A DNA stretch of 64,000 bases from Lyophyllum atratum (lineage: Eukaryota; Basidiomycota; Agaricomycetes; Agaricales; Lyophyllaceae): contig JACGCN010000031.1 of the NCBI GenBank assembly GCA_014905825.1, positions 1 to 64,000 on the forward strand, read 5' to 3'. This document shows, one piece after another, positions 1-23,843 of the stretch (within the stretch, counting starts at the first letter, position 1; every line of letters starts with the position of its first letter). Below the pieces are notes generated by a model. It saw only the letters and a program-made list of their open reading frames with translations, was not told the origin of the DNA and ran no database searches. Position numbers and translations under genes: made by a program.

Positions 1-1330
1 GGGGGCGCGATGTGGGGGCGACGTTCTCGGAGCGTCCAACTTGGACATTGTCGCCGATGATACCCAAAGTCGGAGAGTTCAAAGCTTCGCTCATCCGGTC
101 GTCCTCGTCGTCATTGTCATGACTCTGCCTGCCCTCCTCCTCCTCCTTCATCATTCTTCCTACTCCTCCTCCTCCTCCTCCTCCTCCTCCTCCTCCTGCT
201 CCTCCTCCTCCTCCTCCTCCTCCTCCTCCTCCTCGTCGCTGCTTTCGCTGCTGACCTCCTGCGCCTGCAACCGTTGCCCTCTTGGTCACCAAGTCCGCGA
301 CCGAGCGTCGTCTGGAAGGGGGGCGCGATGTCGGGGGCGACGTTCTCTGAGCGGTCCAACTCGGACATCGTCGCCGATGATACCCAAAGTCGGATAGTCC
401 GGACCTTCGCTCATCCGGTCGTCCTCGTCGTCATTTTCATGATTCTGCCTGCCCACCTCCTCCTCCTCCTCCTCCTCTCCTCCTCGCTGCCTTCCCTGCT
501 AACCTCCTGCGCCTGCAACCGTGCCCTCTTGGCCTTCCCGCCCGCGACGTTCTCCAAGCTCTGCTTCCTCTTCTGTCCGCCGACCGCACGCGAGGCGAGA
601 TGCCACTCCCAGCGCAGCGCCATGACGACATACTGTTCGTCCTCGCCCAGCTTGCTCGGAAGGTGCTTCCTCGCAAAGTCGTGCTTGAAGGAGCACGACC
701 GGTGCCGCCGGGTACAGTACAGGCACCTCAGCCCAGGGCCCGTTGCGGGGACAACGCAGGGCGCCTTGCCGGTCTTGGTGCAGAGGTCGCAGCTCTTCTG
801 CGGGTGGGGAATCAGAAGACGACACCGCAGACGGACGGGAGAGACGCTCACCCCTGCCAGCCACTTCCGCCACGAATCCTCTTTCTTGACGCCCTCCAGC
901 GTTCTGAAACTCTCGTAGAACGCGACTCTCCTCTCACTCAATTCGTTCGGGTCTGGAAACCTCGACGCCTCCTCCTCCGCTATCAGATCATCGCTCGGCT
1001 CCCCATCCTGCTGCCCGGTCCCCCCGCCTTGGTCTTCTTGATGCGCCTGCGGAGCCCTCTGCCCCGTCTGCGTGCCCTCGTCGTCGTCGGAGAAGTCGGC
1101 GTCGCAGTCCGATAGGTCTGAGAGCCCGTCACGTCATGCACTCCATAGGAGACCAATAAGGGCTCACCTTCAAGAACACGCTGCGGGACGTCTGCACCGT
1201 CCCAGGGGATCTGGGCAGCACATCTCCGCTGGCCTTGCATCACCAGTCTGTGCGAGTACCGGTCGATGCGCGCCTGCGCGATGTTCGTCCTGTGCTCTTC
1301 ATGCTCTAGCTCGTTCGCTGGGTGGGACAT
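1..1330 (-). pseudogene. G1 copy 1: Zn2Cys6-like, acidic, coiled-coil protein (frame broken, cut by window edge)
   Basis: This is the same gene as the copy at 9721-11571. It starts at 1330, with introns matching those of the second copy, and reads a cysteine cluster C-x2-C-x7-C-x10-C-x2-C-x6-C (about 695-795) followed by acidic runs. Relative to copy 2 it has single-base changes that shift the frame: one base fewer in the CTC run near 465-485, and one extra G or T near 274, 325 and 352. The acidic tract at 145-235 is also rearranged. The first long acidic stretch therefore ends at a stop near 411. These are true decay or consensus errors in a homopolymer-rich repeat. Confidence 0.55.
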
Positions 1331-1655
1331 GTCTTAGGGTTGAAGAGGGAAAAAAAACCACCGAAAGAGGCGCTCTCAATCAATCAACATTCCTTGAAGG
1401 GTCCTTTCCCATGATCACGGGCCGGTGGAGGAAGCGCCCAGGGCATCATGACGTACAGACAGGGTCAGGGTGAGCTGGGCGGGGCGGGGCGGGGAACGCA
1501 AAGTGGCGCTTCATGAGCTTCGTCATCAGATCGTAGCAGTGGCACTCGTAACCAGAAAGATATTCTATTTTGGCTGGTACTCTACGATGGCAAGACAAAC
1601 AACGGTGGCAAACTTATATACACAAAAAAAACAAGAAAACAGACCACGATCGGAG

Positions 1656-3389
1656 TCACCGCAAAAGCCTCTTTTGCTTGGAGGGCCCTGCCTCTGCATC
1701 CTCGACCTCATCCGCCTTGCGCTTTGTCGATGGAGGAGAGTTGGTGGCGTCGAAAGGCGCCGGGACGGGAGCGGAGAGGAACTCGTTCAGAAGCGCGGAC
1801 GTGCACTCATCCACGTCGATCTCTGAGGCTGATGGGGAGGCGAGTTCGTCGATGTATGGAGAAGGAGGAGACGAGGAGAAGGCGTCGACGTCGTCATCGT
1901 GTCCGAAAGCGTACTGGGCCGCGTCGGGGTCCGCGGAAGAGATGCCAAGGCTGGCGTTGATCATATCTCTCCAAGCATACCACCCGCGGGCTGCGATGAA
2001 AATGTCCCGCAGCTTCGCACTGGCCTGCTCCGTCTTGCCTTTGACCGTGGCCAGGTTCTGCTTCTGCTGCTTCACGTACTCCTTGAGCTGCGTGACCTGC
2101 CCCCGCAGCTCAACGATCTCCTTCTCCTGCGACGTGATGCTCCGCTGGAGCGCCCACAAATCCACGGGGAACGGCGACTCCTGCGAAGCGACCGCACGGT
2201 GCGACTCGGCCTTGGCGGGGGCGGGGGCTGTACGTGCAGTGGCGGCGGTACGAGTGGGTCGGGGACGTCGGGGCTCTTCCGAGTCCTCAGCAGGCGCCTG
2301 CACCGTGCCCGCTCCCTTGCGCGACCTGGCAGCGGGGGGCGACTGGGGCGCTGTCGACTCGTCCTCCGCGTTGCTGTGCTCCGTCCGGGCCTTGGTGAAG
2401 CTGCAGCCTTTCTTGGAGACTGCGCAGTGATAGCACCGAGTGCGGTTGACCCCCTTCCAGCACTTACGCCCGGCCTTCGAACAGGCGTCGCACGGTGGCG
2501 TGTGGACTTCGTCGCCTCGCACGACGTTCCGCGCTGCCTTGGGCCCAGCAGACGCCTCCGCCGCTGTGATCTCCACTATCTCGACCTCATCCTCAGGCTC
2601 GGGCGACGACTCGGAGGGAGGAGTCGGGACGCGAGCCAGTCGTGCTTTCCCCTTACCGCGCATCGAGGTGATGACGACCTCCACCTTGTCGCCCCTTGGG
2701 AGACCGGGGGGTCGCGACAGTGCTGGCTGGGGCGCAGGGGGTGGGACGGCGGTGGTGGATGGAGACGGTGTTGGGACGCGGACGGGAGGGGTGGGGGCGA
2801 CGGCTGAGACACTGTTGGGGCCAGGCCCACGATCGGGAGTGGCTGTGGCGACGGTGACGCGGCCAGGCGGGGGAAGGGCGGAGGGTGGGACGGCGGTGGT
2901 GGATGCAGACGGTGTTCGGACGGGGACGGGAGGGGTGGGGGCGACGGTTGAGACAGGGTCAGGGCCAGGCCCACGATCGGGAGTGGCTGTGGCAACGGTG
3001 ACGTGGCCAGGCTGGGGAAGGGCGGCGGCGGCAGAGGCACGCTCGAGGTCGATGTGGGCGTCGTATGCCGCGATCATGGCCTTGAGCGCCTCCTCGCTCT
3101 TCTTCTGGTGGAACTGGATGAAGCTGTGGATGGTCTTGCCCATGACAGTGGACCGGAAGTGCTCTGCCCGCTCCGGGGCCACCCTGACGGTGAACGGTAA
3201 GCATGCCGCCTTCTGTGTGCGATGGCTCAGTCAGCACGAAACCCTAACCGACGACGATCTCCTTACCGCGTTCCCAAACTCGCCTAGGAGGGCCGCCCGG
3301 GTTTCAGGAGTGTCGCGAACTTTGATGGCCTGGAGTAGGCGTCGAAGGCGCCCGTCAGCGAACTCGAGATCCTGGTATGCGGTGGCCAT
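1656..3389 (-). CDS. G2 copy 1: Zn2Cys6-type cluster and coiled-coil protein
   Basis: Two exons: 3389-3267 (41 codons, beginning MATAYQDLEF) and 3212-1656, giving about 559 residues with phase kept. A conserved-looking head (about residues 1-100) is followed by two ~46-residue Pro/Ser/Thr-rich repeats. At about residues 280-310 lies C-x2-C-x6-C-x8-C-x2-C-x6-C, the spacing of a fungal Zn(II)2Cys6 binuclear cluster. A coiled coil follows at about 375-425 (heptads such as IVELRGQVTQL) and a Ser/acidic tail ending in KRK and KQKR basic patches. In known Zn2Cys6 regulators the cluster is usually N-terminal; here it is central, so a DNA-binding regulator role is only a possibility. The gene is divergent from G3 across 142 bp. 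Confidence 0.7.
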
Positions 3390-3531
3390 GTCGCACAGGT
3401 GGAGTGGCGGTGGAGGGAGAAGTTTTTTTCCCCAGAGTTCAACCCGTCAACCAACACAGGGCACAACAAGGCCCTTTGCCCACGCCACAAGTGTGACCAT
3501 CGTGACGTGACTTTGCTGATCTCCAACCACG
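3390..3531. promoter_or_regulatory. Divergent intergenic region between G2 and G3 (copy 1)
   Basis: The two start codons face away from each other with 142 bp between, so promoters must overlap. A TGACGTGA motif (one base off the palindromic CRE TGACGTCA) lies at 3503-3510, just before the G3 start. There is no clear TATA box. The same sequence is at 13630-13771. The regulatory role is inferred. Confidence 0.35.
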
Positions 3532-4221
3532 ATGAGCGTGGCCAACTTTCAGGAGCTCATCGACTACTTCGACTACCGCCTGCGCGCCGCCTGCCTGCGG
3601 GTGACCTCGCTCGGACACTCCAATCGCCGATCGTGGATGAAGAAGAAGCTCGCAGGAGAAATCGTGCGTGGCCCCGCGCAACCCCCACGTCGCGTTCACT
3701 GATCGTCTGCACAGCATGTCGCCCTCTCCCACGTGGCTGCGGCTTACGGGCGCGGCTTCACGCCTTCTGTGCCCCCGTTTCTCAGCGCCCTCTCCCGCGA
3801 GCTCCAGCCGCCCGAGACCGTCTCGTTCGACATCGATTCCATAAAGCGTGCGATGGAAAGAGCACACGTTACGCGTGCCACAACCCACGGCGAGGGCATA
3901 GCCCTCGACTGGTGGACCACCCTCGACAACGAGAACGCGCCTAAGCGCAGTCGACCAATGACCGACAATGTTCCCGAGCTGCTGGAGGAATATCGTCGCC
4001 ACAAGGCCTCCACGACTTTGGCGGGCGACCTTTCCGACCACGAGGTGTTCGCCGACGAGGACGTTCCCGAGAACGAGCTGTTCTCCGAGGAAGAGGTGTT
4101 CCCAGAGGTGGACTGTGCCGAGAACGAGTTGTTCCCGGACGACGTGGACACGTCCGGGTGGATGGATCCTCTCGTACTGTTTCCCTCGGAGGACGGTGGG
4201 GACATGAGCGTCGACGTCTAG
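3532..4221 (+). CDS. G3 copy 1: acidic protein of unknown function
   Basis: Two exons, 3532-3663 and 3715-4221, phase 0, with a 51-nt GT-AG intron; 212 residues. The N-terminus (MSVANFQELIDYFDYRL) looks helical and the intron separates it from an HVALSHVAAAYGRGF stretch. The C-terminal third carries a threefold acidic repeat of the type ENELFSEEEVFPE / ENELFPDD. I do not recognise the family. Acidic repeats of hydrophobic plus Glu/Asp residues resemble activation domains, but that is inference. Copy 2 at 13772-14461 differs by one silent change in the compared stretch (T at 3969 versus C at 14209). Confidence 0.65.
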
Positions 4222-4386
4222 GCACTATACCCCAGTAGCACTTTGTAGTTTGCGCGCTCCCACTATGCACGTTTGTGTTCCTCGGCCGAAACACCTGGGC
4301 CATCAGAAAGCTTAGTCATGGTACAACCCAAAATAAAAACAGGGAGCGAAATTTTGTTTCACTCCATCTTCCTGCTTCACCACCAC

Positions 4387-5083
4387 ATGCAGTCTGCCAT
4401 GGTCACCTCGCATCCAGAAACTGGGATCGCGTCCGATGAGCGCGATGCGGAGGTGAGTCTCGACGTGTGCGGGACAAGTGTCGTCGCTGACACCCCCTGA
4501 CCCAGGTTTCCGACGTCGCCCGAGCCATGGGCGACGGACAGGTGGTCGACCCCGTCTCACCGTCGCCAGACCGAGGGCGAGAACTCAAGAGGGGACAGGC
4601 TTCCCAAGCACGTACGACCTTGCACTCTTTCCGCACCCGTTTGTGGCTGACGCGCTTTGCTGGCCAGCCACCGACGCCAATCCTGCACCAGCCAAACGGC
4701 CTCGTCGCGACCGCGACGAAAGGGTCACCGCGTCGCCTCACCAGCCCGATGAGAACACCGCGCCCGCCGCCGCGCTCCGCACCGTGGACACCAACACTTC
4801 TGCCAGTAGCCCCTCGCGCACGCCGGTTTTTAGGATCCGCATGCGACTCAGTAAGTTGCCCCTCCCCTCATACCCTGCGCTTCGCCTGGGAGCTGATCGT
4901 CCTCCAGCCCACGAGCAGAACGATATACTCCACGAACTTAGAACACAGATGGGAACCCTGCGACGGGAGGTGGAGGCCCTTGAATTCGTGGTAGAAAATC
5001 TACAAAACCGAGTGGAAAACGTCGAACACCAGGTGGTGTACACCCGAGAGCGAGTGTATGATCTCGAGGACGGGATGCCATAG
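4387..5083 (+). CDS. G4 copy 1: small coiled-coil protein, paralogue of G5
   Basis: Four exons, 4387-4452, 4506-4611, 4668-4850 and 4908-5083, all GT-AG with the frame kept; 176 residues. The middle has the block ADANPAP-like TDANPAPAKRPRRDRDE with a basic patch, then a disordered part. The last exon encodes a leucine-zipper-like coiled coil (ILHELRTQMGTLRREVEAL and onward to the C-terminus). G5 shares the exon layout, the LKRG and DANPAP motifs and the zipper, so the pair arose by tandem duplication. The basic patch is not contiguous with the zipper as in bZIP factors. Function is unknown; dimerisation is likely. Confidence 0.65.
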
Positions 5084-5198
5084 TGCCATTATGATACACA
5101 AAACAAGTCGATTTCTTGCGTTAGTGTTTTGTAGTGCCTGCATACACATTGAGCGCGTGAGCCCTCTACAAGAGAACGAAAGCGATGTCGACGAGCGA

Positions 5199-5206
5199 TG
5201 ACGTCA
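5199..5206. promoter_or_regulatory. Palindromic CRE-like site upstream of G5
   Basis: TGACGTCA, a perfect CRE/ATF palindrome, lies 86 bp before the G5 start; the copy is at 15439-15446. A single occurrence of an 8-mer could be chance. Confidence 0.3.
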
Positions 5207-5291
5207 GGCGGGGGGAGATACCCGCGGGAAAGGAGCGACCTAAAACCTTAGTCATACAAATATCCCGAGTGAAATTTTCCTTTCGCCCACC

Positions 5292-6018
5292 ATGACCACT
5301 GTGCCTCCAGCAACACGGACTCCCTGCCACGATCTTGAGCTGCCTGCGAGGACGACCATGGACTTCAAGGTCAGTCAAGATCCGTGGCCCCAGCGCTCTC
5401 ACTGAAGGCCGCGCTGCCCAGAGCCCTGATGGCGCCAATGCGCTGCAATCAACGCGCGATGAAGATGCGCCGCTAATGTGCGTCCACCCGGTCTCCAACA
5501 TCCATGGTGGCAGATGTTCGCCGAAAGGAGTGCTCAAGAGGGGACACCCTTCAGCTGCTGGTACGATCCTGAGAAATCTCACTACCACTCACTCGCTGAC
5601 GCACCGCACTGAGTAGCGGCCGACGCCAATCCTGCACCCACCAAACGCGATCGTCGCGACGGGAGCGACACGGAGTCCGCGTCGCCTAACCCGGGTGATG
5701 AGAGCAACTTAACCGCCCCGGCAGTCCACGCGCAACACACGAACGTGGGGGCCGCCGCGAACAACGTCTTGAGGCGACAGCCGTCCATGGGACGTATTGC
5801 GGTTAGCATTCGGTCCCAACTCAGTAAGTCCCCCCTGATCACGCCCACTCCCGCCTTACCCCCAGTGTTCCCCAGCTCAAGAACAGCACCATATCGTTGG
5901 GGACCTCCAACGCGAGTTTGAGTGCCTGCGAGAGGACATCGATGCCCTCAGAACCGACGTCGAAACTCTGAAACACCAGCGTAGTACAGGTGTCGACCGT
6001 TCGCCTCACCCGGTGTGA
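5292..6018 (+). CDS. G5 copy 1: small coiled-coil protein, paralogue of G4
   Basis: Four exons, 5292-5369, 5422-5560, 5617-5823 and 5876-6018; 188 residues. Three GT-AG introns (52, 56 and 52 nt) fit a single frame, which is good evidence for a real gene. It matches G4 at LKRG, at ADANPAPTKRDRRD, at the R-x-R-x-x-L exon end, and in the last exon (EQHHIVGDLQREFECLREDI, heptad pattern). Only the second exon is poorly conserved. It is the last gene before the element's non-coding tail. Its introns lie in the sense orientation of X, which matters for how X is copied (see findings). Confidence 0.6.
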
Positions 6019-7764
6019 AACGCTCCCGGTCGCACACTGGGGAGCAATGGCGGCAGTGAGGGTACACCATGGACTCTTAGCGGTTACGGTTGCTCTCACA
6101 AATGATGAATATGGACTCCATTGACATTGGCGACCACGACGACAGCAGGCAGTCCAAAACGCGCAGCGCCGGGGGTGCAGAGCGAGGCGACAATGCGTGG
6201 GTGAAAAGAGCGATCAAAATGCCAAATGACCCATACGGCTCACCAAGCAAAACCGCGGTGCAGAGCGCAGGCAGGCGAAAATGTGTGGGTGAAAAGAGCG
6301 ATCAAAATGCCAAATGACCCATACGGCTGACTAAGCAAAACAGGCGAAAATGCATGGGTGAAAAGAGCGATCAAAATGCCAAATGACCCATACGGCTGAA
6401 TAAGCAAAACCGCCTGGCCCCCACGCGTTTGTATGACGCGCACACGCCTGTTTCTGACTCTATTCTATTTGCAGCTGCACGGGGAATTCTGAGGCGATGC
6501 CACCTTTAACATGGACACATGGTATAATGGTTATCACGCACGCTTTGTCTGCGACTTAGCGGGCGGTCCCCGGTTCAATTCCCGGGTGTGTCTTGGGTGT
6601 CTCGTTGATTTTTTTTGTCCCAGAATGTATGCATCCTGCTCGTTCGTCTTCCAGCTCATCATGAAGAGCAAGGAGAGGGGGAATCGTGGCGGGGGTGCAG
6701 AGCGAGGCGACAATGCGTGGGTGAAAAGAGCGATCAAAATGCCAAATGACCCATACGGCTGAATAAGCAAAACAGGCGAAAATGAAAAGAGCGATCAAAA
6801 TGCCAAATGACCCATACGGCTGAATAAGCAAAACCGCCTGCCCCCCGCCAAACCACTGCTGCAAAAAGCGAAAATGGGTGATGTAATGGACTGCTACCAA
6901 TTACCGTTGCACTCAGAGATAATGAATATCGACTCCACTGACGGTGGCGACGCCGACCACAGCAGGCAGTCCAAAATGCGCAGCGCCGGGGGTGCAAAGC
7001 AAGGCGACAATGCGTGGGTGAAAAGAGCGATCAAAATGCCAAATGACCCATACGGCTGAATAAGCAAAACAGGCGAAAATGAAAGAGCGATCAAAATGCC
7101 AAATGACCCATACGGCTGAATAAGCAAAACAGGCGAAAATGAAAAGAGCGATCAAAATGCCAAATGACCCATACGGCTGAATACGCAAAAACCGCCTGCC
7201 CTCCGCCAAACCACTGCTGCAAAAAGCGAAAATGGGTGATGTAATGGACTGCTACCAATTACCGTTGCACTCAGAGATAATGAATATCGACTCCACTGAC
7301 GGTGGCGACACCGACGACGCACCGCTAACACATACAGCGCAAGTGCGGGGTTTCCATTGACACACGAAAATGAAAAATACAAAGATTGAAAAAAAAATGG
7401 TCATGGCGGCAACACATACATCAACGGACGTCCCTTTCCTGGCCTGCGCGGTGTGACCTTTGACACTTGAAAATGAAAAAAATTACTAAAAGTGGTCACT
7501 AACCCTAAAGTGGTCGTCGCCGAGGACAATGGCGGCGGGGGACTGCACTCACAACGGCAAACACCTCACAAGGACCGACCACTCGTGCGGGACCGGGGTC
7601 ACCTGCTGGACGCTGGAAAATGAGAGAGAAAACAAACCAAAAATCGTGGCCGCCGCCGGCGACTACGGGGGCGACGGACCAGGCGACGGGTTATAACATT
7701 CGCAGAGGCGGCGACCGCACCTTATACACGTCGGATGGAAAAAGACGGGGCTTGCGATTTCCAA
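6019..7764 (+). repeat. X tail with ~61-bp minisatellite (copy 1)
   Basis: There is no gene here. A unit of about 61 bp with the core gatcaaaatgccaaatgacc / catacggctgaataagcaaa recurs at about 6188-6250, 6289-6335, 6358-6410, 6718-6770, 6785-6835, 7018-7068, 7082-7130 and 7142-7190, mostly joined by aggcgaaaatg. Two longer direct repeats of about 170 bp (containing actgctaccaattaccgttg) sit at about 6846-6960 and 7206-7310. Short ORFs here are passages through the repeat and are not genes. Confidence 0.8.
6513..6593 (+). repeat. tRNA-like unit with A and B boxes (copy 1)
   Basis: 81 nt with a good A box (TGGTATAATGG), a perfect B box (GGTTCAATTCC), acceptor-like ends GGACACA/TGTGTCT and a T run 13 nt downstream, as for RNA polymerase III. 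The D stem has two mismatches, the T stem is irregular and no clean anticodon arm forms. It is best called a decayed tRNA or the head of a tRNA-derived SINE. It recurs at 8282-8362, 16753-16833 and 22822-22902. Confidence 0.55.
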
Positions 7765-7949
7765 TTTAGACGAAAGATTCGCACGGAGGTCGTCGCCATA
7801 AAGAACGACGTCTAGCGGGCTCATTTCTTCGCGGTTCCCCGCGGTGCAAGCGGAACCGCAGACGGTTCCCCCTCCCCGAGGCCGTGGAGGGTGCACCGCT
7901 GCGCGGTGCGGTGGGTGCTTCCCTGTGCGGCACAGGGAAGGAAGAATAT
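7765..7949 (+). other. Invariant 185-nt hairpin-rich 3' block of X (copy a)
   Basis: Identical over 185 nt to 9530-9714, 18000-18184 and 21223-21407. It contains GCACCGC-TGC-GCGGTGC (7-bp stem), a larger stem built on GCGGTT/AACCGC and CCGC/GCGG, and a final 10-bp perfect hairpin CTTCCCTGTG-CGG-CACAGGGAAG. It ends gaagaatat followed by ggatag at the junction. It is the shared 3' terminus of every X copy. Confidence 0.75.
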
Positions 7950-8281
7950 GGATAGGCGACAATGCGTGGGTGAAAAGAGCGATCAAAATGCCAAATGACC
8001 CATACGGCTCACCAAGCAAAACCGCGGTGCAGAGCGCAGGCAGGCGAAAATGTGTGGGTGAAAAGAGCGATCAAAATGCCAAATGACCCATACGGCTGAC
8101 TAAGCAAAACAGGCGAAAATGCATGGGTGAAAAGAGCGATCAAAATGCCAAATGACCCATACGGCTGAATAAGCAAAACCGCCTGGCCCCCACGCGTTTG
8201 TATGACGCGCACACGCCTGTTTCTGACTCTATTCTATTTGCAGCTGCACGGGGAATTCTGAGGCGATGCCACCTTTAACAT

Positions 8282-8362
8282 GGACACATGGTATAATGGT
8301 TATCACGCACGCTTTGTCTGCGACTTAGCGGGCGGTCCCCGGTTCAATTCCCGGGTGTGTCT
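8282..8362 (+). repeat. tRNA-like unit (copy 2)
   Basis: Identical to the 6513-6593 unit, with A box, B box and downstream T run. Confidence 0.55.
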
Positions 8363-9529
8363 TGGGTGTCTCGTTGATTTTTTTGTCCCAGAATGTATGC
8401 ATCCTGCTCGTTCGTCTTCCAGCTCATCATGAAGAGCAAGGAGAGGGGGAATCGTGGCGGGGGTGCAGAGCGAGGCGACAATGCGTGGGTGAAAAAGAGC
8501 GATCAAAATGCCAAATGACCCATACGGCTGAATAAGCAAAACAGGCGAAAATGAAAAGAGCGATCAAAATGCCAAATGACCCATACGGCTGAATAAGCAA
8601 AACCGCCTGCCCCCCGCCAAACCACTGCTGCAAAAAGCGAAAATGGGTGATGTAATGGACTGCTACCAATTACCGTTGCACTCAGAGATAATGAATATCG
8701 ACTCCACTGACGGTGGCGACGCCGACCACAGCAGGCAGTCCAAAATGCGCAGCGCCGGGGGTGCAAAGCAAGGCGACAATGCGTGGGTGAAAAGAGCGAT
8801 CAAAATGCCAAATGACCCATACGGCTGAATAAGCAAAACAGGCGAAAATGAAAAGAGCGATCAAAATGCCAAATGACCCATACGGCTGAATAAGCAAAAC
8901 AGGCGAAAATGAAAAGAGCGATCAAAATGCCAAATGACCCATACGGCTGAATACGCAAAACCGCCTGCCCTCCGCCAAACCACTGCTGCAAAAAGCGAAA
9001 ATGGGTGATGTAATGGACTGCTACCAATTACCGTTGCACTCAGAGATAATGAATATCGACTCCACTGACGGTGGCGACACCGACGACGCACCGCTAACAC
9101 ATACAGCGCAAGTGCGGGGTTTCCATTGACACACGAAAATGAAAAATACAAAGATTGAAAAAAAAATGGTCATGGCGGCAACACATACATCAACGGACGT
9201 CCCTTTCCTGGCCTGCGCGGTGTGACCTTTGACACTTGAAAATGAAAAAAATTACTAAAAGTGGTCACTAACCCTAAAGTGGTCGTCGCCGAGGACAATG
9301 GCGGCGGGGACTGCACTCACAACGGCAAACACCTCACAAGGACCGACCACTCGTGCGGGACCGGGGTCACCTGCTGGACGCTGGAAAATGAGAGAAAACA
9401 AACCAAAAATCGTGGCCGCCGCCGGCGACTACGGGGGCGACGGACCAGGCGACGGGTATAACATTCGCAGAGGCGGCGACCGCACCTTATACACGTCGGA
9501 TGGAAAAAGACGGGGCTTGCGATTTCCAA

Positions 9530-9714
9530 TTTAGACGAAAGATTCGCACGGAGGTCGTCGCCATAAAGAACGACGTCTAGCGGGCTCATTTCTTCGCGGT
9601 TCCCCGCGGTGCAAGCGGAACCGCAGACGGTTCCCCCTCCCCGAGGCCGTGGAGGGTGCACCGCTGCGCGGTGCGGTGGGTGCTTCCCTGTGCGGCACAG
9701 GGAAGGAAGAATAT
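9530..9714 (+). other. Invariant 185-nt 3' block of X (copy b)
   Basis: Same sequence as the 7765-7949 block, followed by ggatag and then by the cut G1 gene of the next unit. Confidence 0.75.
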
Positions 9715-9720
9715 GGATAG

Positions 9721-11571: not shown

Positions 11572-11895
11572 GTCTTAGGGTTGAAGAGGGAAAAAAACCA
11601 CCGAAAGAGGCGCTCTCAATCAATCAACATTCCTTGAAGGGTCCTTTCCCATGATCACGGGCCGGTGGAGGAAGCGCCCAGGGCATCATGACGTACAGAC
11701 AGGGTCAGGGTGAGCTGGGCGGGGCGGGGCGGGGAACGCAAAGTGGCGCTTCATGAGCTTCGTCATCAGATCGTAGCAGTGGCACTCGTAACCAGAAAGA
11801 TATTCTATTTTGGCTGGTACTCTACGATGGCAAGACAAACAACGGTGGCAAACTTATATACACAAAAAAAACAAGAAAACAGACCACGATCGGAG

Positions 11896-13629
11896 TCACC
11901 GCAAAAGCCTCTTTTGCTTGGAGGGCCCTGCCTCTGCATCCTCGACCTCATCCGCCTTGCGCTTTGTCGATGGAGGAGAGTTGGTGGCGTCGAAAGGCGC
12001 CGGGACGGGAGCGGAGAGGAACTCGTTCAGAAGCGCGGACGTGCACTCATCCACGTCGATCTCTGAGGCTGATGGGGAGGCGAGTTCGTCGATGTATGGA
12101 GAAGGAGGAGACGAGGAGAAGGCGTCGACGTCGTCATCGTGTCCGAAAGCGTACTGGGCCGCGTCGGGGTCCGCGGAAGAGATGCCAAGGCTGGCGTTGA
12201 TCATATCTCTCCAAGCATACCACCCGCGGGCTGCGATGAAAATGTCCCGCAGCTTCGCACTGGCCTGCTCCGTCTTGCCTTTGACCGTGGCCAGGTTCTG
12301 CTTCTGCTGCTTCACGTACTCCTTGAGCTGCGTGACCTGCCCCCGCAGCTCAACGATCTCCTTCTCCTGCGACGTGATGCTCCGCTGGAGCGCCCACAAA
12401 TCCACGGGGAACGGCGACTCCTGCGAAGCGACCGCACGGTGCGACTCGGCCTTGGCGGGGGCGGGGGCTGTACGTGCAGTGGCGGCGGTACGAGTGGGTC
12501 GGGGACGTCGGGGCTCTTCCGAGTCCTCAGCAGGCGCCTGCACCGTGCCCGCTCCCTTGCGCGACCTGGCAGCGGGGGGCGACTGGGGCGCTGTCGACTC
12601 GTCCTCCGCGTTGCTGTGCTCCGTCCGGGCCTTGGTGAAGCTGCAGCCTTTCTTGGAGACTGCGCAGTGATAGCACCGAGTGCGGTTGACCCCCTTCCAG
12701 CACTTACGCCCGGCCTTCGAACAGGCGTCGCACGGTGGCGTGTGGACTTCGTCGCCTCGCACGACGTTCCGCGCTGCCTTGGGCCCAGCAGACGCCTCCG
12801 CCGCTGTGATCTCCACTATCTCGACCTCATCCTCAGGCTCGGGCGACGACTCGGAGGGAGGAGTCGGGACGCGAGCCAGTCGTGCTTTCCCCTTACCGCG
12901 CATCGAGGTGATGACGACCTCCACCTTGTCGCCCCTTGGGAGACCGGGGGGTCGCGACAGTGCTGGCTGGGGCGCAGGGGGTGGGACGGCGGTGGTGGAT
13001 GGAGACGGTGTTGGGACGCGGACGGGAGGGGTGGGGGCGACGGCTGAGACACTGTTGGGGCCAGGCCCACGATCGGGAGTGGCTGTGGCGACGGTGACGC
13101 GGCCAGGCGGGGGAAGGGCGGAGGGTGGGACGGCGGTGGTGGATGCAGACGGTGTTCGGACGGGGACGGGAGGGGTGGGGGCGACGGTTGAGACAGGGTC
13201 AGGGCCAGGCCCACGATCGGGAGTGGCTGTGGCAACGGTGACGTGGCCAGGCTGGGGAAGGGCGGCGGCGGCAGAGGCACGCTCGAGGTCGATGTGGGCG
13301 TCGTATGCCGCGATCATGGCCTTGAGCGCCTCCTCGCTCTTCTTCTGGTGGAACTGGATGAAGCTGTGGATGGTCTTGCCCATGACAGTGGACCGGAAGT
13401 GCTCTGCCCGCTCCGGGGCCACCCTGACGGTGAACGGTAAGCATGCCGCCTTCTGTGTGCGATGGCTCAGTCAGCACGAAACCCTAACCGACGACGATCT
13501 CCTTACCGCGTTCCCAAACTCGCCTAGGAGGGCCGCCCGGGTTTCAGGAGTGTCGCGAACTTTGATGGCCTGGAGTAGGCGTCGAAGGCGCCCGTCAGCG
13601 AACTCGAGATCCTGGTATGCGGTGGCCAT
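11896..13629 (-). CDS. G2 copy 2: Zn2Cys6-type cluster and coiled-coil protein
   Basis: Identical in layout and sequence to the 1656-3389 gene: exons 13629-13507 and 13452-11896, 559 residues, central C-x2-C-x6-C-x8-C-x2-C-x6-C and coiled coil. Being intact in both units suggests a very recent duplication or selection. Confidence 0.7.
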
Positions 13630-13771
13630 GTCGCACAGGTGGAGTGGCGGTGGAGGGAGAAGTTTTTTTCCCCAGAGTTCAACCCGTCAACCAACACAGG
13701 GCACAACAAGGCCCTTTGCCCACGCCACAAGTGTGACCATCGTGACGTGACTTTGCTGATCTCCAACCACG

Positions 13772-14461
13772 ATGAGCGTGGCCAACTTTCAGGAGCTCAT
13801 CGACTACTTCGACTACCGCCTGCGCGCCGCCTGCCTGCGGGTGACCTCGCTCGGACACTCCAATCGCCGATCGTGGATGAAGAAGAAGCTCGCAGGAGAA
13901 ATCGTGCGTGGCCCCGCGCAACCCCCACGTCGCGTTCACTGATCGTCTGCACAGCATGTCGCCCTCTCCCACGTGGCTGCGGCTTACGGGCGCGGCTTCA
14001 CGCCTTCTGTGCCCCCGTTTCTCAGCGCCCTCTCCCGCGAGCTCCAGCCGCCCGAGACCGTCTCGTTCGACATCGATTCCATAAAGCGTGCGATGGAAAG
14101 AGCACACGTTACGCGTGCCACAACCCACGGCGAGGGCATAGCCCTCGACTGGTGGACCACCCTCGACAACGAGAACGCGCCTAAGCGCAGTCGACCAATG
14201 ACCGACAACGTTCCCGAGCTGCTGGAGGAATATCGTCGCCACAAGGCCTCCACGACTTTGGCGGGCGACCTTTCCGACCACGAGGTGTTCGCCGACGAGG
14301 ACGTTCCCGAGAACGAGCTGTTCTCCGAGGAAGAGGTGTTCCCAGAGGTGGACTGTGCCGAGAACGAGTTGTTCCCGGACGACGTGGACACGTCCGGGTG
14401 GATGGATCCTCTCGTACTGTTTCCCTCGGAGGACGGTGGGGACATGAGCGTCGACGTCTAG
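13772..14461 (+). CDS. G3 copy 2: acidic protein of unknown function
   Basis: Exons 13772-13903 and 13955-14461; 212 residues, same protein as the 3532-4221 gene. Confidence 0.65.
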
Positions 14462-14626
14462 GCACTATACCCCAGTAGCACTTTGTAGTTTGCGCGCTCC
14501 CACTATGCACGTTTGTGTTCCTCGGCCGAAACACCTGGGCCATCAGAAAGCTTAGTCATGGTACAACCCAAAATAAAAACAGGGAGCGAAATTTTGTTTC
14601 ACTCCATCTTCCTGCTTCACCACCAC

Positions 14627-15323
14627 ATGCAGTCTGCCATGGTCACCTCGCATCCAGAAACTGGGATCGCGTCCGATGAGCGCGATGCGGAGGTGAGTCT
14701 CGACGTGTGCGGGACAAGTGTCGTCGCTGACACCCCCTGACCCAGGTTTCCGACGTCGCCCGAGCCATGGGCGACGGACAGGTGGTCGACCCCGTCTCAC
14801 CGTCGCCAGACCGAGGGCGAGAACTCAAGAGGGGACAGGCTTCCCAAGCACGTACGACCTTGCACTCTTTCCGCACCCGTTTGTGGCTGACGCGCTTTGC
14901 TGGCCAGCCACCGACGCCAATCCTGCACCAGCCAAACGGCCTCGTCGCGACCGCGACGAAAGGGTCACCGCGTCGCCTCACCAGCCCGATGAGAACACCG
15001 CGCCCGCCGCCGCGCTCCGCACCGTGGACACCAACACTTCTGCCAGTAGCCCCTCGCGCACGCCGGTTTTTAGGATCCGCATGCGACTCAGTAAGTTGCC
15101 CCTCCCCTCATACCCTGCGCTTCGCCTGGGAGCTGATCGTCCTCCAGCCCACGAGCAGAACGATATACTCCACGAACTTAGAACACAGATGGGAACCCTG
15201 CGACGGGAGGTGGAGGCCCTTGAATTCGTGGTAGAAAATCTACAAAACCGAGTGGAAAACGTCGAACACCAGGTGGTGTACACCCGAGAGCGAGTGTATG
15301 ATCTCGAGGACGGGATGCCATAG
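14627..15323 (+). CDS. G4 copy 2: small coiled-coil protein
   Basis: Exons 14627-14692, 14746-14851, 14908-15090 and 15148-15323; 176 residues, same as the 4387-5083 gene. Confidence 0.65.
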
Positions 15324-15531
15324 TGCCATTATGATACACAAAACAAGTCGATTTCTTGCGTTAGTGTTTTGTAGTGCCTGCATACACATTGAGCGCGTGA
15401 GCCCTCTACAAGAGAACGAAAGCGATGTCGACGAGCGATGACGTCAGGCGGGGGGAGATACCCGCGGGAAAGGAGCGACCTAAAACCTTAGTCATACAAA
15501 TATCCCGAGTGAAATTTTCCTTTCGCCCACC

Positions 15532-16258
15532 ATGACCACTGTGCCTCCAGCAACACGGACTCCCTGCCACGATCTTGAGCTGCCTGCGAGGACGACCATG
15601 GACTTCAAGGTCAGTCAAGATCCGTGGCCCCAGCGCTCTCACTGAAGGCCGCGCTGCCCAGAGCCCTGATGGCGCCAATGCGCTGCAATCAACGCGCGAT
15701 GAAGATGCGCCGCTAATGTGCGTCCACCCGGTCTCCAACATCCATGGTGGCAGATGTTCGCCGAAAGGAGTGCTCAAGAGGGGACACCCTTCAGCTGCTG
15801 GTACGATCCTGAGAAATCTCACTACCACTCACTCGCTGACGCACCGCACTGAGTAGCGGCCGACGCCAATCCTGCACCCACCAAACGCGATCGTCGCGAC
15901 GGGAGCGACACGGAGTCCGCGTCGCCTAACCCGGGTGATGAGAGCAACTTAACCGCCCCGGCAGTCCACGCGCAACACACGAACGTGGGGGCCGCCGCGA
16001 ACAACGTCTTGAGGCGACAGCCGTCCATGGGACGTATTGCGGTTAGCATTCGGTCCCAACTCAGTAAGTCCCCCCTGATCACGCCCACTCCCGCCTTACC
16101 CCCAGTGTTCCCCAGCTCAAGAACAGCACCATATCGTTGGGGACCTCCAACGCGAGTTTGAGTGCCTGCGAGAGGACATCGATGCCCTCAGAACCGACGT
16201 CGAAACTCTGAAACACCAGCGTAGTACAGGTGTCGACCGTTCGCCTCACCCGGTGTGA
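15532..16258 (+). CDS. G5 copy 2: small coiled-coil protein
   Basis: Exons 15532-15609, 15662-15800, 15857-16063 and 16116-16258; 188 residues, same as the 5292-6018 gene. The CRE-like palindrome is at 15439-15446. Confidence 0.6.
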
Positions 16259-17999
16259 AACGCTCCCGGTCGCACACTGGGGAGCAATGGCGGCAGTGAG
16301 GGTACACCATGGACTCTTAGCGGTTACGGTTGCTCTCACAAATGATGAATATGGACTCCATTGACATTGGCGACCACGACGACAGCAGGCAGTCCAAAAC
16401 GCGCAGCGCCGGGGGTGCAGAGCGAGGCGACAATGCGTGGGTGAAAAGAGCGATCAAAATGCCAAATGACCCATACGGCTCACCAAGCAAAACCGCGGTG
16501 CAGAGCGCAGGCAGGCGAAAATGTGTGGGTGAAAAGAGCGATCAAAATGCCAAATGACCCATACGGCTGACTAAGCAAAACAGGCGAAAATGCATGGGTG
16601 AAAAGAGCGATCAAAATGCCAAATGACCCATACGGCTGAATAAGCAAAACCGCCTGGCCCCCACGCGTTTGTATGACGCGCACACGCCTGTTTCTGACTC
16701 TATTCTATTTGCAGCTGCACGGGGAATTCTGAGGCGATGCCACCTTTAACATGGACACATGGTATAATGGTTATCACGCACGCTTTGTCTGCGACTTAGC
16801 GGGCGGTCCCCGGTTCAATTCCCGGGTGTGTCTTGGGTGTCTCGTTGATTTTTTTGTCCCAGAATGTATGCATCCTGCTCGTTCGTCTTCCAGCTCATCA
16901 TGAAGAGCAAGGAGAGGGGGAATCGTGGCGGGGGTGCAGAGCGAGGCGACAATGCGTGGGTGAAAAGAGCGATCAAAATGCCAAATGACCCATACGGCTG
17001 AATAAGCAAAACAGGCGAAAATGAAAAGAGCGATCAAAATGCCAAATGACCCATACGGCTGAATAAGCAAAACCGCCTGCCCCCCGCCAAACCACTGCTG
17101 CAAAAAGCGAAAATGGGTGATGTAATGGACTGCTACCAATTACCGTTGCACTCAGAGATAATGAATATCGACTCCACTGACGGTGGCGACGCCGACCACA
17201 GCAGGCAGTCCAAAATGCGCAGCGCCGGGGGTGCAAAGCAAGGCGACAATGCGTGGGTGAAAAGAGCGATCAAAATGCCAAATGACCCATACGGCTGAAT
17301 AAGCAAAACAGGCGAAAATGAAAAGAGCGATCAAAATGCCAAATGACCCATACGGCTGAATAAGCAAAACAGGCGAAAATGAAAAGAGCGATCAAAATGC
17401 CAAATGACCCATACGGCTGAATACGCAAAACCGCCTGCCCTCCGCCAAACCACTGCTGCAAAAAGCGAAAATGGGTGATGTAATGGACTGCTACCAATTA
17501 CCGTTGCACTCAGAGATAATGAATATCGACTCCACTGACGGTGGCGACACCGACGACGCACCGCTAACACATACAGCGCAAGTGCGGGGTTTCCATTGAC
17601 ACACGAAAATGAAAAATACAAAGATTGAAAAAAAAATGGTCATGGCGGCAACACATACATCAACGGACGTCCCTTTCCTGGCCTGCGCGGTGTGACCTTT
17701 GACACTTGAAAATGAAAAAAATTACTAAAAGTGGTCACTAACCCTAAAGTGGTCGTCGCCGAGGACAATGGCGGCGGGGACTGCACTCACAACGGCAAAC
17801 ACCTCACAAGGACCGACCACTCGTGCGGGACCGGGGTCACCTGCTGGACGCTGGAAAATGAGAGAAAACAAACCAAAAATCGTGGCCGCCGCCGGCGACT
17901 ACGGGGGCGACGGACCAGGCGACGGGTATAACATTCGCAGAGGCGGCGACCGCACCTTATACACGTCGGATGGAAAAAGACGGGGCTTGCGATTTCCAA
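16259..17999 (+). repeat. X tail with minisatellite (copy 2)
   Basis: Same non-coding tail as 6019-7764, present once here. No gene is seen. Confidence 0.8.
16753..16833 (+). repeat. tRNA-like unit (copy 3)
   Basis: Same 81-nt unit as at 6513-6593. Confidence 0.55.
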
Positions 18000-18184
18000 T
18001 TTAGACGAAAGATTCGCACGGAGGTCGTCGCCATAAAGAACGACGTCTAGCGGGCTCATTTCTTCGCGGTTCCCCGCGGTGCAAGCGGAACCGCAGACGG
18101 TTCCCCCTCCCCGAGGCCGTGGAGGGTGCACCGCTGCGCGGTGCGGTGGGTGCTTCCCTGTGCGGCACAGGGAAGGAAGAATAT
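18000..18184 (+). other. Invariant 185-nt 3' block of X (copy c)
   Basis: Hairpins at 18128-18144 (7 bp) and 18153-18175 (10 bp). The block is followed by ggatag and immediately by PLE reverse-transcriptase coding sequence. Confidence 0.75.
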
Positions 18185-18190
18185 GGATAG

Positions 18191-19368
18191 GATTTTCCCA
18201 TACGCCTACGACCGCCGACATTAGTAAACTTTCCCCGGATATTCTAGTAGAATTAGAAGTATTCCAAATGTGTTTAATACAAGGCAATAATAACTTAATT
18301 ACGCAATATAAAGATAAAACGTACAAACAGATACGGGGACTCGCTATGGGAGTTGCCGATAGTCCAGACCTAGCAAATCTCTACGGCTGGTACTTTGAAT
18401 CAAAGTGCGGCATCTTGGATAACCCGAACGTTCCTTTTTACGGTCGGTATATAGACGATTGCGCGGCAATTGTGTACGCAAACTCTGAAACAGAGGCCTT
18501 GCGGCACTTAGAAGCCGTCAAATTCGCCGATTGCGTCATCGAATGGCAGGCATCCGAATCACATCAAGCGTTCCTTGATATGACGTTGTACCGTGATGAA
18601 CACGGGTCGTTACAACACATGCCGTTTCGGAAGGCCGGTTCGCATCAAGAAAGAATCCCTTGGCATAGTGCCCATCCATTGACCGTCAAACGTGGGACGT
18701 TCATAGGCGAAATGTCACGGTTAGCAACGCTAAGTAGTACCCCTCGGACCTACTTGGATGCAATTGAAGCCCTTACGGCGCTTTATATTGTGCGCGGCTA
18801 CCCGGAAGCGTTAGTTAGAAACTGGCGAAAGAGTAACATGCAAGAACGATGGGCTAAACGCCTCAATGAATCTCGGCCTGCGCCGGAAGGAGTTCTTGTT
18901 CTTAAGTCGGAGTTTAACACCGCATGGGATTACTTTAATGCTAAAGCATTAGGAGATACAGTATTAGGATACTGGCGCGAGTGGATTAACCGCGCCGTAG
19001 ATGGCCGTTTCGATGCCGGCCACTACCAAAATTGGGGTGATTTCGTTGGTGATGTCGATGCCGACCCGGAACTCTGTTCCAAGGTCGTTGTACTCGGCAC
19101 CCCTGTTCTCATGCCCGATATTACTAAATTAGATATTCTAAATCGTAGAGTCTTGGTCGCGCAACGTCGCACCAAAAATCTCTTTGACCTTACCGGTCTT
19201 TGGAAAAAGACTGTACTCTCCGCGATGGAGCGCGAAGTTTCAGATCCAATGAATCAGAAAGAAGATACTCCCGATCCCGACGCAATGGATGTCGAATCGG
19301 ACTCTTCGGATGAAGATCCTTGGGTGCGCGCTTGGAATGTCGATCATGGTTTCCAGGCTGCTCGGTAA
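18191..19368 (+). pseudogene. PLE reverse transcriptase, N-terminal part missing
   Basis: About 392 codons of RT from just before the RGLAMGVADSPDLANLY motif (RT motif B region), through YIDD (18448-18459, motif C), an FLDMTLYRD-like block and PWHSAHPLTVKRG, which is characteristic of PLE RTs and resembles the WSSAHP-type block, to an acidic C-terminus and stop at 19366. RT motif A and everything upstream are absent. No GIY-YIG endonuclease follows, so it belongs to the EN-deficient class. The reading frame runs open into the upstream X block only by chance. As it stands it cannot encode an active enzyme. Confidence 0.8.
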
Positions 19369-20383
19369 TCCCGAGTACCCTTAACCCCTGCCCTTCGGGG
19401 TACGTTACCCTGTGTGTGGATAATTGGCAGGCTGCCAGCCATTGCGGCCCAGCCCCCGTCCAACTTAGCGCCTCGGCCTTCGTTGGGAGCCGGACTTTGT
19501 CCGGTACCAGCCCGTTAGGGCAGCCACAGTGGGCTCAGTTGAGACCGCATACGAAGTGCGGCTCGGTCGTATGCGGGGTTGTAACCCCGCTAAACGCTTC
19601 CTGCTTCTGGCTTTGCAAGTCGAAAACCGGTGTCCTTATGCCGGGGAATAGAATGTAACCCGGGACACGTCGCGGCGAGAGCTCGGAGATACTCCCTTGT
19701 AACCAAAAAACCACCTTTGATCGTCCTCCCTCGCATCATGATTTAGCTACACGCTAAAGTACACATCGTACGTACTACGGTTTCTGCAGATTCATGCAGA
19801 CGGTACTAACCTACTGTGTCCAACTAGAAAGTGATTGTACCGGAACCAACCGGAACTAGTCGGAGAAAGGCGTAAAACCCTAATCCTAACCGTAAGTACA
19901 TTCAAGTAATTGAAATACACAAGTCTAACCGACAGTATCCAACAGCTAACTCTAACGCTAACCCTAACCGGTTAACCGCGTTGGAGGTAGACGTTAGTGC
20001 AGGTAAGCAGTCCTTATTCAGATTCTACCAGAATTCACCTCAGAATGGAGTTGGGGTGGGACGTTGTTCATCGACGTTGAGACTGCTACAAGCGCTTACG
20101 CCTTCGGCGATACTTCGGATCTTTACATAATATCAGGTGACCTCGGACATGTGCCGGATCACCGGGTATTAGTCAGAATGATTGAGTCATCGGCCGCCGA
20201 GCCGGCCCGCTTACGTAGCGGGCTTTATTAAGCGGCCCTGACATCAGTCAGCGTGTTTCACACGCCTGTCAAAGTCTGACTTTGACAGGTCCTGAGTAAA
20301 GATGGTTGCTACGCAACCTTGACAGTAACATGTGCCACCAGACAAAAAGTTTTTTGATGGTCAGCGTGTGAACCGATTGTTAT
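19369..20383 (+). other. Structured PLE 3' region
   Basis: Non-coding. Several perfect hairpins: CGCATACGA/TCGTATGCG (about 19556-19587), GGGGTT/AACCCC just after it, CCTGTCAAAG-TCTGA-CTTTGACAGG (about 20265-20290) and GGTTGC-TAC-GCAACC (about 20303-20318). Degenerate telomeric runs lie at 19874-19894 and 19945-19970. Confidence 0.55.
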
Positions 20384-20449
20384 CAGGACCTGAAGAGCAT
20401 AAAAGCGAAACAGGTTTGGCATGGGAATCCCCCATAGCCTGTTGTCCTG
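20384..20449 (+). ncRNA. Type I hammerhead ribozyme
   Basis: Stem I is CAGGAC (20384-20389) with GTCCTG (20444-20449). The core is CTGAAGA (20390-20396, fits CUGANGA). Stem II is GC/GC (20397-20398 and 20405-20406) with a 6-nt loop. GAA is at 20407-20409, and stem III is ACAGG (20410-20414) with CCTGT (20438-20442), holding an inner ATGGG/CCCAT helix. The unpaired U at 20443 is the H17 cleavage position. All invariant core bases are present and all three helices pair. Hammerheads are known in PLE terminal repeats, where they process the RNA. Only stem II is short. Confidence 0.85.
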
Positions 20450-20510
20450 TACGCAGCCCTCTTCATCAGAGAACCCCCACAACGACTTTCCAAGGTTGTT
20501 GTTCATCCCA

Positions 20511-20528
20511 CCCTAACCCTAACCCTAA
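20511..20528 (+). repeat. Telomeric repeats (CCCTAA)3
   Basis: CCCTAACCCTAACCCTAA, exact, between the 3' end of the PLE and the 5' cut of the next X copy. It marks a former chromosome end and fixes the telomere on the left. Confidence 0.9.
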
Positions 20529-21407
20529 GGGGGGCCGAAATACTTGGCTGAAAAGACCGATCAAAATGCTTAGTCAGACGAACGACCCATTCCAGATTCA
20601 AAATGCTTAGTAAGACGAACGACCCATTCCAGATCACGAAGCAAACCGGCTGCCCGCCAAAAGAAAAATATCAAAATCAAATTGTTTCTGCGGTACTCGT
20701 CGCCGACGACTGTAACATGTGCAACCGAAGCGCTGAATCAAGTCGCAAATCGGAAGTTTACAATTACACAAATTGCCCCGGCATTGTTGTCGACGACATG
20801 GTCGACCGTCCACATCACACGCAGCACCCGCCTCATTGACCGCCTGCGCAAAACCTGAAAATTTCACAAATTGGCTGTTCCCATCGCCGCCGACGACGAC
20901 GACGACCCACCTCAAACACATACCCAACAAGCGACCTCCCTTGCCTGCGATAAGTGACCTTTAAAAATCAGAAAACAAAAAAGTGGTTGTCGCCGTCGAC
21001 AACGGCGGAGCCGGTGGCCTACCACACCACTGCGAACACAGAACCAATAAGCGACCTCTCTTACCTGCGCTCCGTTACCTTTGAAGCTCAAAACTGAGAA
21101 GAAAAAAATCGACGTCGCCGACGACGATGACGGCGGCGGCCGACCACCCGACCGGTACCACATTCGCAGAGTCCACACCCCCCACCTAAAACGCCTCTAC
21201 CCAAAAAGAACGCGGCTTGCCGTTTAGACGAAAGATTCGCACGGAGGTCGTCGCCATAAAGAACGACGTCTAGCGGGCTCATTTCTTCGCGGTTCCCCGC
21301 GGTGCAAGCGGAACCGCAGACGGTTCCCCCTCCCCGAGGCCGTGGAGGGTGCACCGCTGCGCGGTGCGGTGGGTGCTTCCCTGTGCGGCACAGGGAAGGA
21401 AGAATAT
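20529..21407 (+). mobile_element. Element X, diverged 5'-truncated copy
   Basis: Starts directly after the telomeric repeats. The body (aaaagaccgatcaaaatgc and related) is clearly but weakly similar to the X tail. The last 185 nt (21223-21407) are identical to the other copies. No gene is seen. Confidence 0.65.
21223..21407 (+). other. Invariant 185-nt 3' block of X (copy d)
   Basis: Identical to the other three blocks although the sequence before it is strongly diverged. The junction reads aggtag instead of ggatag. Confidence 0.75.
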
Positions 21408-21410
21408 AGG

Positions 21411-21607
21411 TAGGTAAGTCTAGTCGTTCCTAAGCACCCTACATAACTTGACCATCGACGCTAGAACGAAGCTTCCATCTTCTCAACGCCAACCACCAAG
21501 TCGACCGAAAGGTAAGTCTAGCTATGCCTAAGTACCCTACATAAGTTGACTATCGAGACTAGATCCATACCTCGACCTCTTGACTAACTACCAAGTCGAC
21601 GCCTTAA
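21411..21607 (+). repeat. Two imperfect ~98-bp direct repeats
   Basis: Units at about 21411-21509 and 21510-21607 share ggtaagtctag, cctaag-accctacataa, ttgac-atcga and ccaagtcgac. Each ends at a GTAAGT that could act as a splice donor. Confidence 0.6.
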
Positions 21608-23566: not shown

Positions 23567-23838
23567 CCCTACCTACCCTCCCTACCCTCCCTACCCTCTA
23601 CCCTCCCTACCCTCCCTACCCTACCCTCCCTACCCTCTACCCTCCCTACCCTCCCTACCCTACCCTCCCTACCCTCTACCCTCCCTACCCTACCCTCCCT
23701 ACCCTCCCTACCCTCCCTACCCTCCCTACCCTCCCTACCCTCTACCCTCCCTACCCTCCCTACCCTCCCTACCCTACACGATTCTAGGTTTAAATCCCTA
23801 CCTTTCAAAAAAAGTCCCCATAACCCCTAACCCTAAAC
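23567..23838 (+). repeat. Degenerate telomere-like satellite and telomeric repeat
   Basis: About 220 bp of (CCCTCCCTA)n and CCCTACCCT variants (23567-23785), then 40 bp of other sequence and CCCCTAACCCTAAAC at 23824-23838. The C-rich strand is on +, as for a left chromosome end. Confidence 0.75.
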
Positions 23839-23843
23839 TCACC

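Follow-up and report, generated by a model that had tools for sequence, protein, structure and literature searches.

The window, i.e., the whole stretch of DNA analysed here, comprises the first 64 kb of contig C77 (652,213 bp) of Lyophyllum atratum. Its outer part consists of four copies of an element termed X, all on the forward strand, and one Penelope-like element (PLE). X1 (family A, 1..7956, 3' end ..GGATAGG) is joined at the AGG of 7954-7956 by the 5'-truncated X2 (family A, 7957..9721), which is followed by X3 (family A, 9722..18191, 8470 nt), itself 5'-truncated relative to a copy on contig C11. The PLE occupies 18192..20528, and X4 (family B, 20529..21414, 3' end ..AGGTAGG) is again 5'-truncated. 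In a self-comparison of the window, 1-7956 and 10239-18191 are 99.7% identical, the segments 6185-7956, 7954-9721 and 16425-18191 share 99.5-99.9% mutual identity, and 7507-7956 matches 20980-21414 of X4 at 79%, while X4 displays 98.9-99.7% identity with other family B copies. X1 and X3 are separated by 9 substitutions, 7 of which fall inside a CCT microsatellite, and by 13 gaps that mostly span one base; X2 differs from X3 in a single column. The 5' starts are all different, X1 running off the start of C77, X2 beginning at the equivalent of 6188, X3 within the region of a minus-strand open reading frame (ORF G1) and X4 at 20529 directly after (CCCTAA)3. Hence, the serial arrangement described in the earlier note, with four equally oriented copies, four 5' starts and a truncated PLE between two X blocks, is confirmed. 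That all four copies share one 3' end likewise holds, but not at 7949, 9714, 18184 and 21407, where ..GGAAGAATAT ends; the shared end lies 7 bases further (..GGATAGG or ..AGGTAGG), at 7956, 9721, 18191 and 21414.

Families A and B have a 3' module of ~191 nt in common (7766..7956, 9531..9721, 18001..18191 and, for family B, 21224..21414, all on the forward strand), while the remainder has diverged: only 2 positions differ in the final 150 nt, whereas elsewhere 13-41 columns match in each segment of 50. No known RNA family was detected in the X 3' module (Rfam, E up to 1, 17900-18220) and no tRNA-like block by ARAGORN in 1-30000 (bacterial setting). Folding of the 191 nt gave a z-score of -2.5, with 4 of 200 shuffled sequences equally stable, and that of 216 nt a z-score of -2.05 (6/200). 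As the minimum-energy fold differs from the centroid fold, no weight is given to a particular structure, and covariation is uninformative because the copies are nearly identical.

Upstream of this module, X3 carries G2 (11896..13470, minus strand, 524 aa), G3 (13943..14461, sense strand, 172 aa, 8 genome matches) and a further sense-strand ORF of 208 aa from the reading frame list (14697..15323). Neither G2 nor G3 has a Pfam match; G2 shows 40% protein identity to another protein and recurs as a near-identical stretch in X1, ~10,240 bases to the left. The longest X block read, ~24.3 kb on C11 and maybe not one element, contains a RecQ-like helicase gene, whose product comprises DEAD and Helicase_C domains and matches RecQ structures. 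Strong helicase copies are found at C11 and C71, and C49 contains a fragment; the gene is absent from X3. Relative to the X template proposed below, the helicase gene and several ORFs are antisense. The earlier note had seen no reverse transcriptase (RT) in X, and none was recognised in the X regions read, including the C11 block, whose complete sequence showed no match to a PLE profile.

The element between X3 and X4 is recognised as a PLE by its RT frame, its homologs and its other copies. The C-terminal part of the RT frame (18192..19368, forward strand) is 99% identical to C71:7486-8661 and matches a PLE profile. It carries RT motifs such as YIDD, and RT motifs are visible in the alignment with five homologs of 36-71% identity. 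RVT_1 was passed by one of the four homologs scanned and failed by the window family itself; a PDB search gave no match for the frame and, with the PLE profile, two at E ~0.1. Within the 1087-residue C71 frame, Pfam (E up to 1) matched no GIY-YIG domain, in a search that misses the RT of that frame as well. A possible hammerhead ribozyme in the 3' UTR (20380..20452, forward strand; core by eye) reached 18.1 bits with Rfam HH9 (E 0.22), compared with a gathering score of 52. The PLE ends in (CCCTAA)3 at 20511-20528, with its 5'-truncated end outward, and the C71 copy has (CCCTAA)3 at its end too, followed by another flank, so the repeats preceding X4 belong to the PLE 3' end. The earlier reading of a truncated PLE between two X copies is supported, and we take the element to be endonuclease-less and of the Coprina type, i.e., an RT without GIY-YIG, 5'-truncated and with CCCTAA repeats at the 3' end. 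Priming on telomeric G-overhangs fits this PLE. In contrast to Coprina-type elements, X itself is not a PLE, and the 3' sequences of the two are not alike by eye.

A search of the whole assembly with the X 3' tail yielded 23 matches, drawn from 22 first-look candidates which were all scored, and all 23 end on one base. On contigs of more than 390 kb, 20 of 20 tails have their 3' end inward and 19 of 20 lie no more than 50 kb from a contig end, the exception being a C46 copy 99 kb from its contig end; the other three are on the small contigs C11 (two) and C49 (one). The 5' extents range from ~250 bp upward. Apart from C46, nothing was seen of what the earlier note had named as evidence against its view, namely internal copies in both orientations, identical 5' ends, or a duplication shown to be an assembly artefact or simple break-induced replication, and its expectation of end-located, singly oriented copies with variable 5' cuts and a fixed 3' end was borne out, as was that of serial additions at chromosome ends. 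Some chromosomal targets lack their distal part: unbroken counterparts extend ~11 kb further out (C24 for C68) or about 17 kb beyond a truncated C71 target (C78). On C24, C46, C97 and C130, other subtelomeric sequence lies on the outer side of the X copy, which indicates that recombination is also active at these ends.

The new result for X is a joining rule. Every one of the 23 copies ends in ..TAGG, preceded by A or G, while the base after the X end is variable. Unoccupied target paralogs have AGG directly in front of the junction in 20 of 23 comparisons (18 of 21 distinct sites), as against 4 of 418 control positions. As X ends in ..TAGG and the targets carry AGG, X joins with a three-base overlap; the fourth base matches in 5 of 19 cases, as expected by chance. 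The targets without AGG are C74 (GG only), C11:52437 (G only) and C46 (ambiguous), and AGG is found at none of three PLE 3' junctions. The earlier note had proposed priming of X on telomeric G-overhangs, which is not supported, since none of the 23 X ends passes directly into CCCTAA and a TTAGGG overhang does not explain AGG in 20 of 23 targets. Two X ends are followed by a PLE stub of 21-24 nt ending in CCCTAA repeats, both cut at the same AGG. An RT-less element with such a joining rule was not encountered in those parts of the open-access literature that were consulted. The stacking of X through one 3' end, nearly always at AGG, suggests a retrotransposition-like capping of broken ends beside ordinary telomeres.

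We consider it reasonably probable that X, in both families, is an RT-less chromosome-end element of large size which carries genes and is copied in trans from non-telomeric CCT 3' ends. A non-telomeric chromosome 3' end in ..CCT would pair with the ..AGG of the X 3' end and be extended along the X template. As extension starts from this pairing, the innermost X base would be fixed, and the 5' end of the copy would lie where synthesis stopped or where the end later eroded. Further rounds could follow on the end of a truncated X or PLE copy, or on chromosomal sequence with its distal part missing. We infer that CCT/AGG priming causes the rule and that the most likely template is X RNA, which may be recognised via the shared ~191-nt module, with an enzyme acting in trans for which the resident endonuclease-less PLE is a candidate. 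Counted against this mechanism are the three targets without AGG, the C46 copy at 99 kb, the outer subtelomeric sequence, the antisense genes, the putative nature of the link between the PLE and X, the unlikeness by eye of their 3' sequences, and the missing RNA signature: there is no poly(A), and among introns judged by eye no copy free of a sense-strand intron was seen.

DNA-templated spread, to which we assign a low but real probability, would dispense with RNA: eroded or broken ends would invade and copy X through break-induced replication, replication mediated by microhomology or telomere-attrition-induced recombination, or would fuse with extrachromosomal X DNA that is linear and has a fixed end. 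It accounts for the antisense genes and the absence of spliced copies, recombination between ends is clearly active here, and in Pyricularia arrays are described, in the part of the source consulted, to grow by recombination at interstitial telomeres (PMC8381367). However, all 23 joints fall on one X base that is not an end in the donor chromosome, the overlap comprises just three bases with a chance-level fourth, and the joints do not fall on telomere repeats. A further reading, rather improbable in our view, takes X for a genuine giant retroelement which encodes an RT in a 5' part beyond the sequence read and would be autonomous and terminon-like with a different 3' end. The C71 block from PLE to B tail, ~40 kb with 30 kb outside the sequence read, would accommodate this, as terminons of up to 40 kb are described (PMC6431247, in part), but the C11 block lacks a PLE profile match and neither a PLE RT nor any of 150 scored RVT_1 hits falls in the C71 block (in the RVT_1 search, 84 further candidates unscored, known PLE also missed by this search). 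Helitrons encode a Rep/helicase protein and end in 3' CTRR. One-ended rolling-circle transposition of this or the IS91 type would yield an end fixed by a short target word opposite a variable one, as in X, and one predicted fold places a 10-bp hairpin near the X end; it is nevertheless highly improbable, as all 20 copies on large contigs share one orientation and all but one lie near ends, no Rep domain occurs among 10 proteins scanned, and X ends in TAGG after A or G, not CTRR, with a variable next base. An assembly artefact is hardly credible, for although X1 sits at a contig tip and its differences from X3 are mostly single-base gaps plus a microsatellite, this joint is found again and again, on 14 contigs and beside differing flanks, and obeys the AGG rule.

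Returning to copying in trans from CCT ends, a bolder version, which we regard as tentative, is that the PLE, a telomerase-related RT, serves two templates: on telomeric overhangs it would copy its own RNA, while telomere-less breaks would be capped from giant, helicase-bearing, RT-less X RNAs by three-base AGG/CCT priming through the ~191-nt tag. If true, a host with TTAGGG telomeres would have a second end-healing system, fungi would heal ends along a HeT-A-like path under a simple joining rule, and subtelomeric helicase-gene blocks would be mobile by a mechanism beyond recombination alone. A transferable end tag of ~191 nt and a three-base target rule are directly testable.

HeT-A elements end in oligo(A) at their 3' end. 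In the parts of the sources consulted, HeT-A of Drosophila is described as RT-less, added head-to-tail and in one orientation to chromosome or broken ends, with an RT from another element (PMC4700185, PMC5537684). X resembles it in its head-to-tail, singly oriented addition at truncated chromosome sites and may resemble it in being RT-less, no RT having been recognised in the X parts read, but carries unrelated genes in place of a Gag-like ORF, has no poly(A), follows the AGG rule and resides in a host with TTAGGG telomere arrays, whereas the HeT-A host lacks telomerase. Terminons (Athena, bdelloid rotifers) are likewise large, with many genes and 5'-truncated head-to-tail telomere arrays (PMC6431247), and combine an RT with a hammerhead and, after it, telomere repeats in reverse complement (PMC6431247, PMC5537684), each as far as the excerpts go. 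X shares their size, gene content and truncated head-to-tail arrays at chromosome ends; as far as read, it has neither an RT nor such a 3' end, ending in TAGG instead, so the earlier suggestion that X may be a non-autonomous or composite terminon is not upheld. MoTeR and FoTeR (Pyricularia, Fusarium) are described as telomeric retroelements of fungi, many of whose copies are truncated, and FoTeRs are often located with telomere-linked helicase (TLH) genes (PMC12857005). Their insertion sites are telomere repeats and they encode both RT and endonuclease, whereas X is joined at AGG, with no RT seen. Yeast Y' elements are reportedly mobilised by Ty1. With TLH and Y' blocks, the X-linked blocks have in common a subtelomeric RecQ-like helicase gene, and such a helicase at chromosome ends is also noted, in the part consulted, for Agaricus bisporus var. 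burnettii (PMC7473861). What sets X apart from these helicase blocks is its fixed 3' base together with the AGG rule.

X, the chromosome-end block with a common 3' end, is represented in the assembly (64.76 Mb, 151 contigs) by 23 matches to its 3' tail, all 23 of which finish at one common base. On contigs longer than 390 kb, this 3' end faces inward in 20 of 20 cases and lies less than 50 kb from the contig end in 19 of them, the exception being C46 (99 kb); the remaining three matches fall on two small contigs, C11 and C49. The shortest 5' extent matched is about 250 bp and the longest at least 8.5 kb; G3, a sense-strand ORF of the copy X3, has eight matches, seven on large contigs less than 45 kb from an end and one on C11. 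What the earlier note observed is real, and stronger than could be shown there. Its coordinates are correct overall, with the common 3' end extending 7 bases further. The window makes up the first 64 kb of contig C77 (652,213 bp). From the contig tip inward, it holds X1 (1-7956), X2 (7957-9721) and X3 (9722-18191), all of family A, a 5'-truncated Penelope-like element (PLE; 18192-20528) and X4 of family B (20529-21414), beyond which other sequence, also present in C24 and C49, is reached. Relative to X3, X1 shows 13 gaps, mostly of a single base within homopolymers; as X1 lies at the contig tip, errors in the consensus may account for them. A 192-nt block with a tRNA-like stretch, in which ARAGORN called no tRNA, occurs inside X at 6498-6689, 8267-8457 and 16738-16928 and recurs outside X at 22806-22997 with 97-98% identity.

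Families A and B end in GGATAGG and AGGTAGG, respectively. In their alignment, the last four 50-column windows contain 48, 50, 50 and 43 identities, the fourth taking in a 5-nt gap in its outer part, and the next ones 28, 39 and then 13-41. Because identity falls off in this way, the two families, diverged elsewhere, have in common a module of about 191 nt with sharp boundaries. The folds predicted for it are of moderate stability and not robust, and it matched no Rfam family.

For each of the 23 X junctions, a search was made for a paralog of the inner flank in which the target is unoccupied, lacking X. A script found such paralogs for 22 of 23; directly before the junction, 19 of them have AGG and 20 have GG. 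The flank on C75 fell below the script's length limit, and AGG was seen there in a separate comparison. This gives AGG in 20/23 and GG in 21/23, some paralogs being distant or repetitive and those of nine flanks being judged from 20 of 30 non-self matches. As targets are shared by the two copies on C97 and by those on C68 and C130, AGG stands before the junction at 18 of 21 distinct sites. Three targets depart from this: C74 has GG, within a minisatellite of about 80% identity; C11:52437 has only G, in both its paralogs; and C46, where the homologs are distant, is ambiguous. At a further 19 upstream offsets, used as control, AGG occurred in 4 of 418 cases. The base preceding the target AGG matches the T of the X tail in 5 of 19, which is chance level; hence, X and target overlap by exactly three bases.

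For two junctions, the target counterpart runs on outward: that of C68:45610 continues in C24 about 11 kb past the same AGG, and that of C71:49911 is unbroken in C78 for about 17 kb. X is therefore located where distal DNA is missing. A telomere array caps a truncated B copy on C97, and another on C44 lies on sequence unrelated to the X regions examined; the genome that harbours X therefore has TTAGGG telomeres as well.

The 3' terminus of the PLE carries between one and three CCCTAA units, and a search for its 3' motif gave eleven copies. AGG is absent from all three PLE 3' junctions whose targets are known. The PLE fits the model of the earlier note, priming on telomeric repeats, which X does not. 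The copy in C71, which comes after an X tail, has an open frame of 1087 residues; five homologs share 36-71% identity, one of the four scanned passed the RVT_1 cut-off, and no GIY-YIG was found. The 3' UTR contains a hammerhead-like stretch scoring under the Rfam cut-off. PLE copies are stacked as well: at C2:56200-56500, another PLE stub, about 45 bp long, comes after a PLE 3' end. At the right end of C61, the 3' motif with three CCCTAA units lies about 625 bp inside a telomere array, an arrangement that resembles a truncated PLE with telomere repeats as its cap.

Growth at a chromosome end would extend the strand with its 3' end at the tip, on which the fixed base of X would be synthesised first and the variable end last. 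Target-primed reverse transcription and telomerase have this same polarity. We infer that the tip strand of the target would finish in CCT, able to pair with the AGG at the X 3' end. At two loci, PLE stubs of 21-24 nt share one AGG as their cut site, which a fold prediction places at the top of a hairpin; this would fit an RT stalled on PLE RNA and then switching to X RNA. One PLE is reported to begin reverse transcription within its template, with no homology between template and cut DNA (PMC11167929); on that account, X RNA need not finish exactly at TAGG. The main rival, DNA-based copying of X, accounts for the missing spliced copies but leaves the single start base unexplained. Of the terminon-like addition on G-overhangs proposed earlier, the setting stands, and for X the way in which the joint is made does not. 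X is not classed as a terminon because the 3'-end feature of terminons, when looked for, was not found in it; it probably works most like HeT-A.

Searches for an RT of its own in X gave the following. Pfam recognised none in X among ten proteins, one of them a PLE frame that was also missed, and a PLE profile run against 3451 ORFs of the regions covered (of C71, those outside 10001-40000) picked up the two known PLEs and nothing else. For RVT_1, 150 matches were scored and 84 candidates were not; none of the 150 fell in C11, C77:1-21414, C68:1-46 kb or the C71 block, and the known PLE itself was not among the matches listed. As cargo, a block on C11 that is bounded by a B tail and an A tail, about 24.3 kb in full sequence, carries X genes together with a RecQ-like helicase gene and an OrsD-domain gene on the strand opposite to X sense. 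No further X or PLE end was found within it, and it may be a single element. The helicase recurs with 88% identity in the C71 block, and C49 has a fragment of it; its 11 other genome matches are all weak. The C71 B block also holds an antisense F-box gene exactly at the Pfam cut-off (excerpt L033, 6248-7432).

A third end-associated motif, AAAAGYCCCCATAACCC, follows a CCCTCCCTA minisatellite at 23567-23840 of the window. Genome-wide, 33 exact copies are spread over 15 contigs. Nine of these contigs have a known length above 170 kb, and on them the CCCTAA side faces inward in 21 of 21 copies, located up to about 120 kb from the contig end. The motif may represent another element, likewise with a fixed 3' end of its own.
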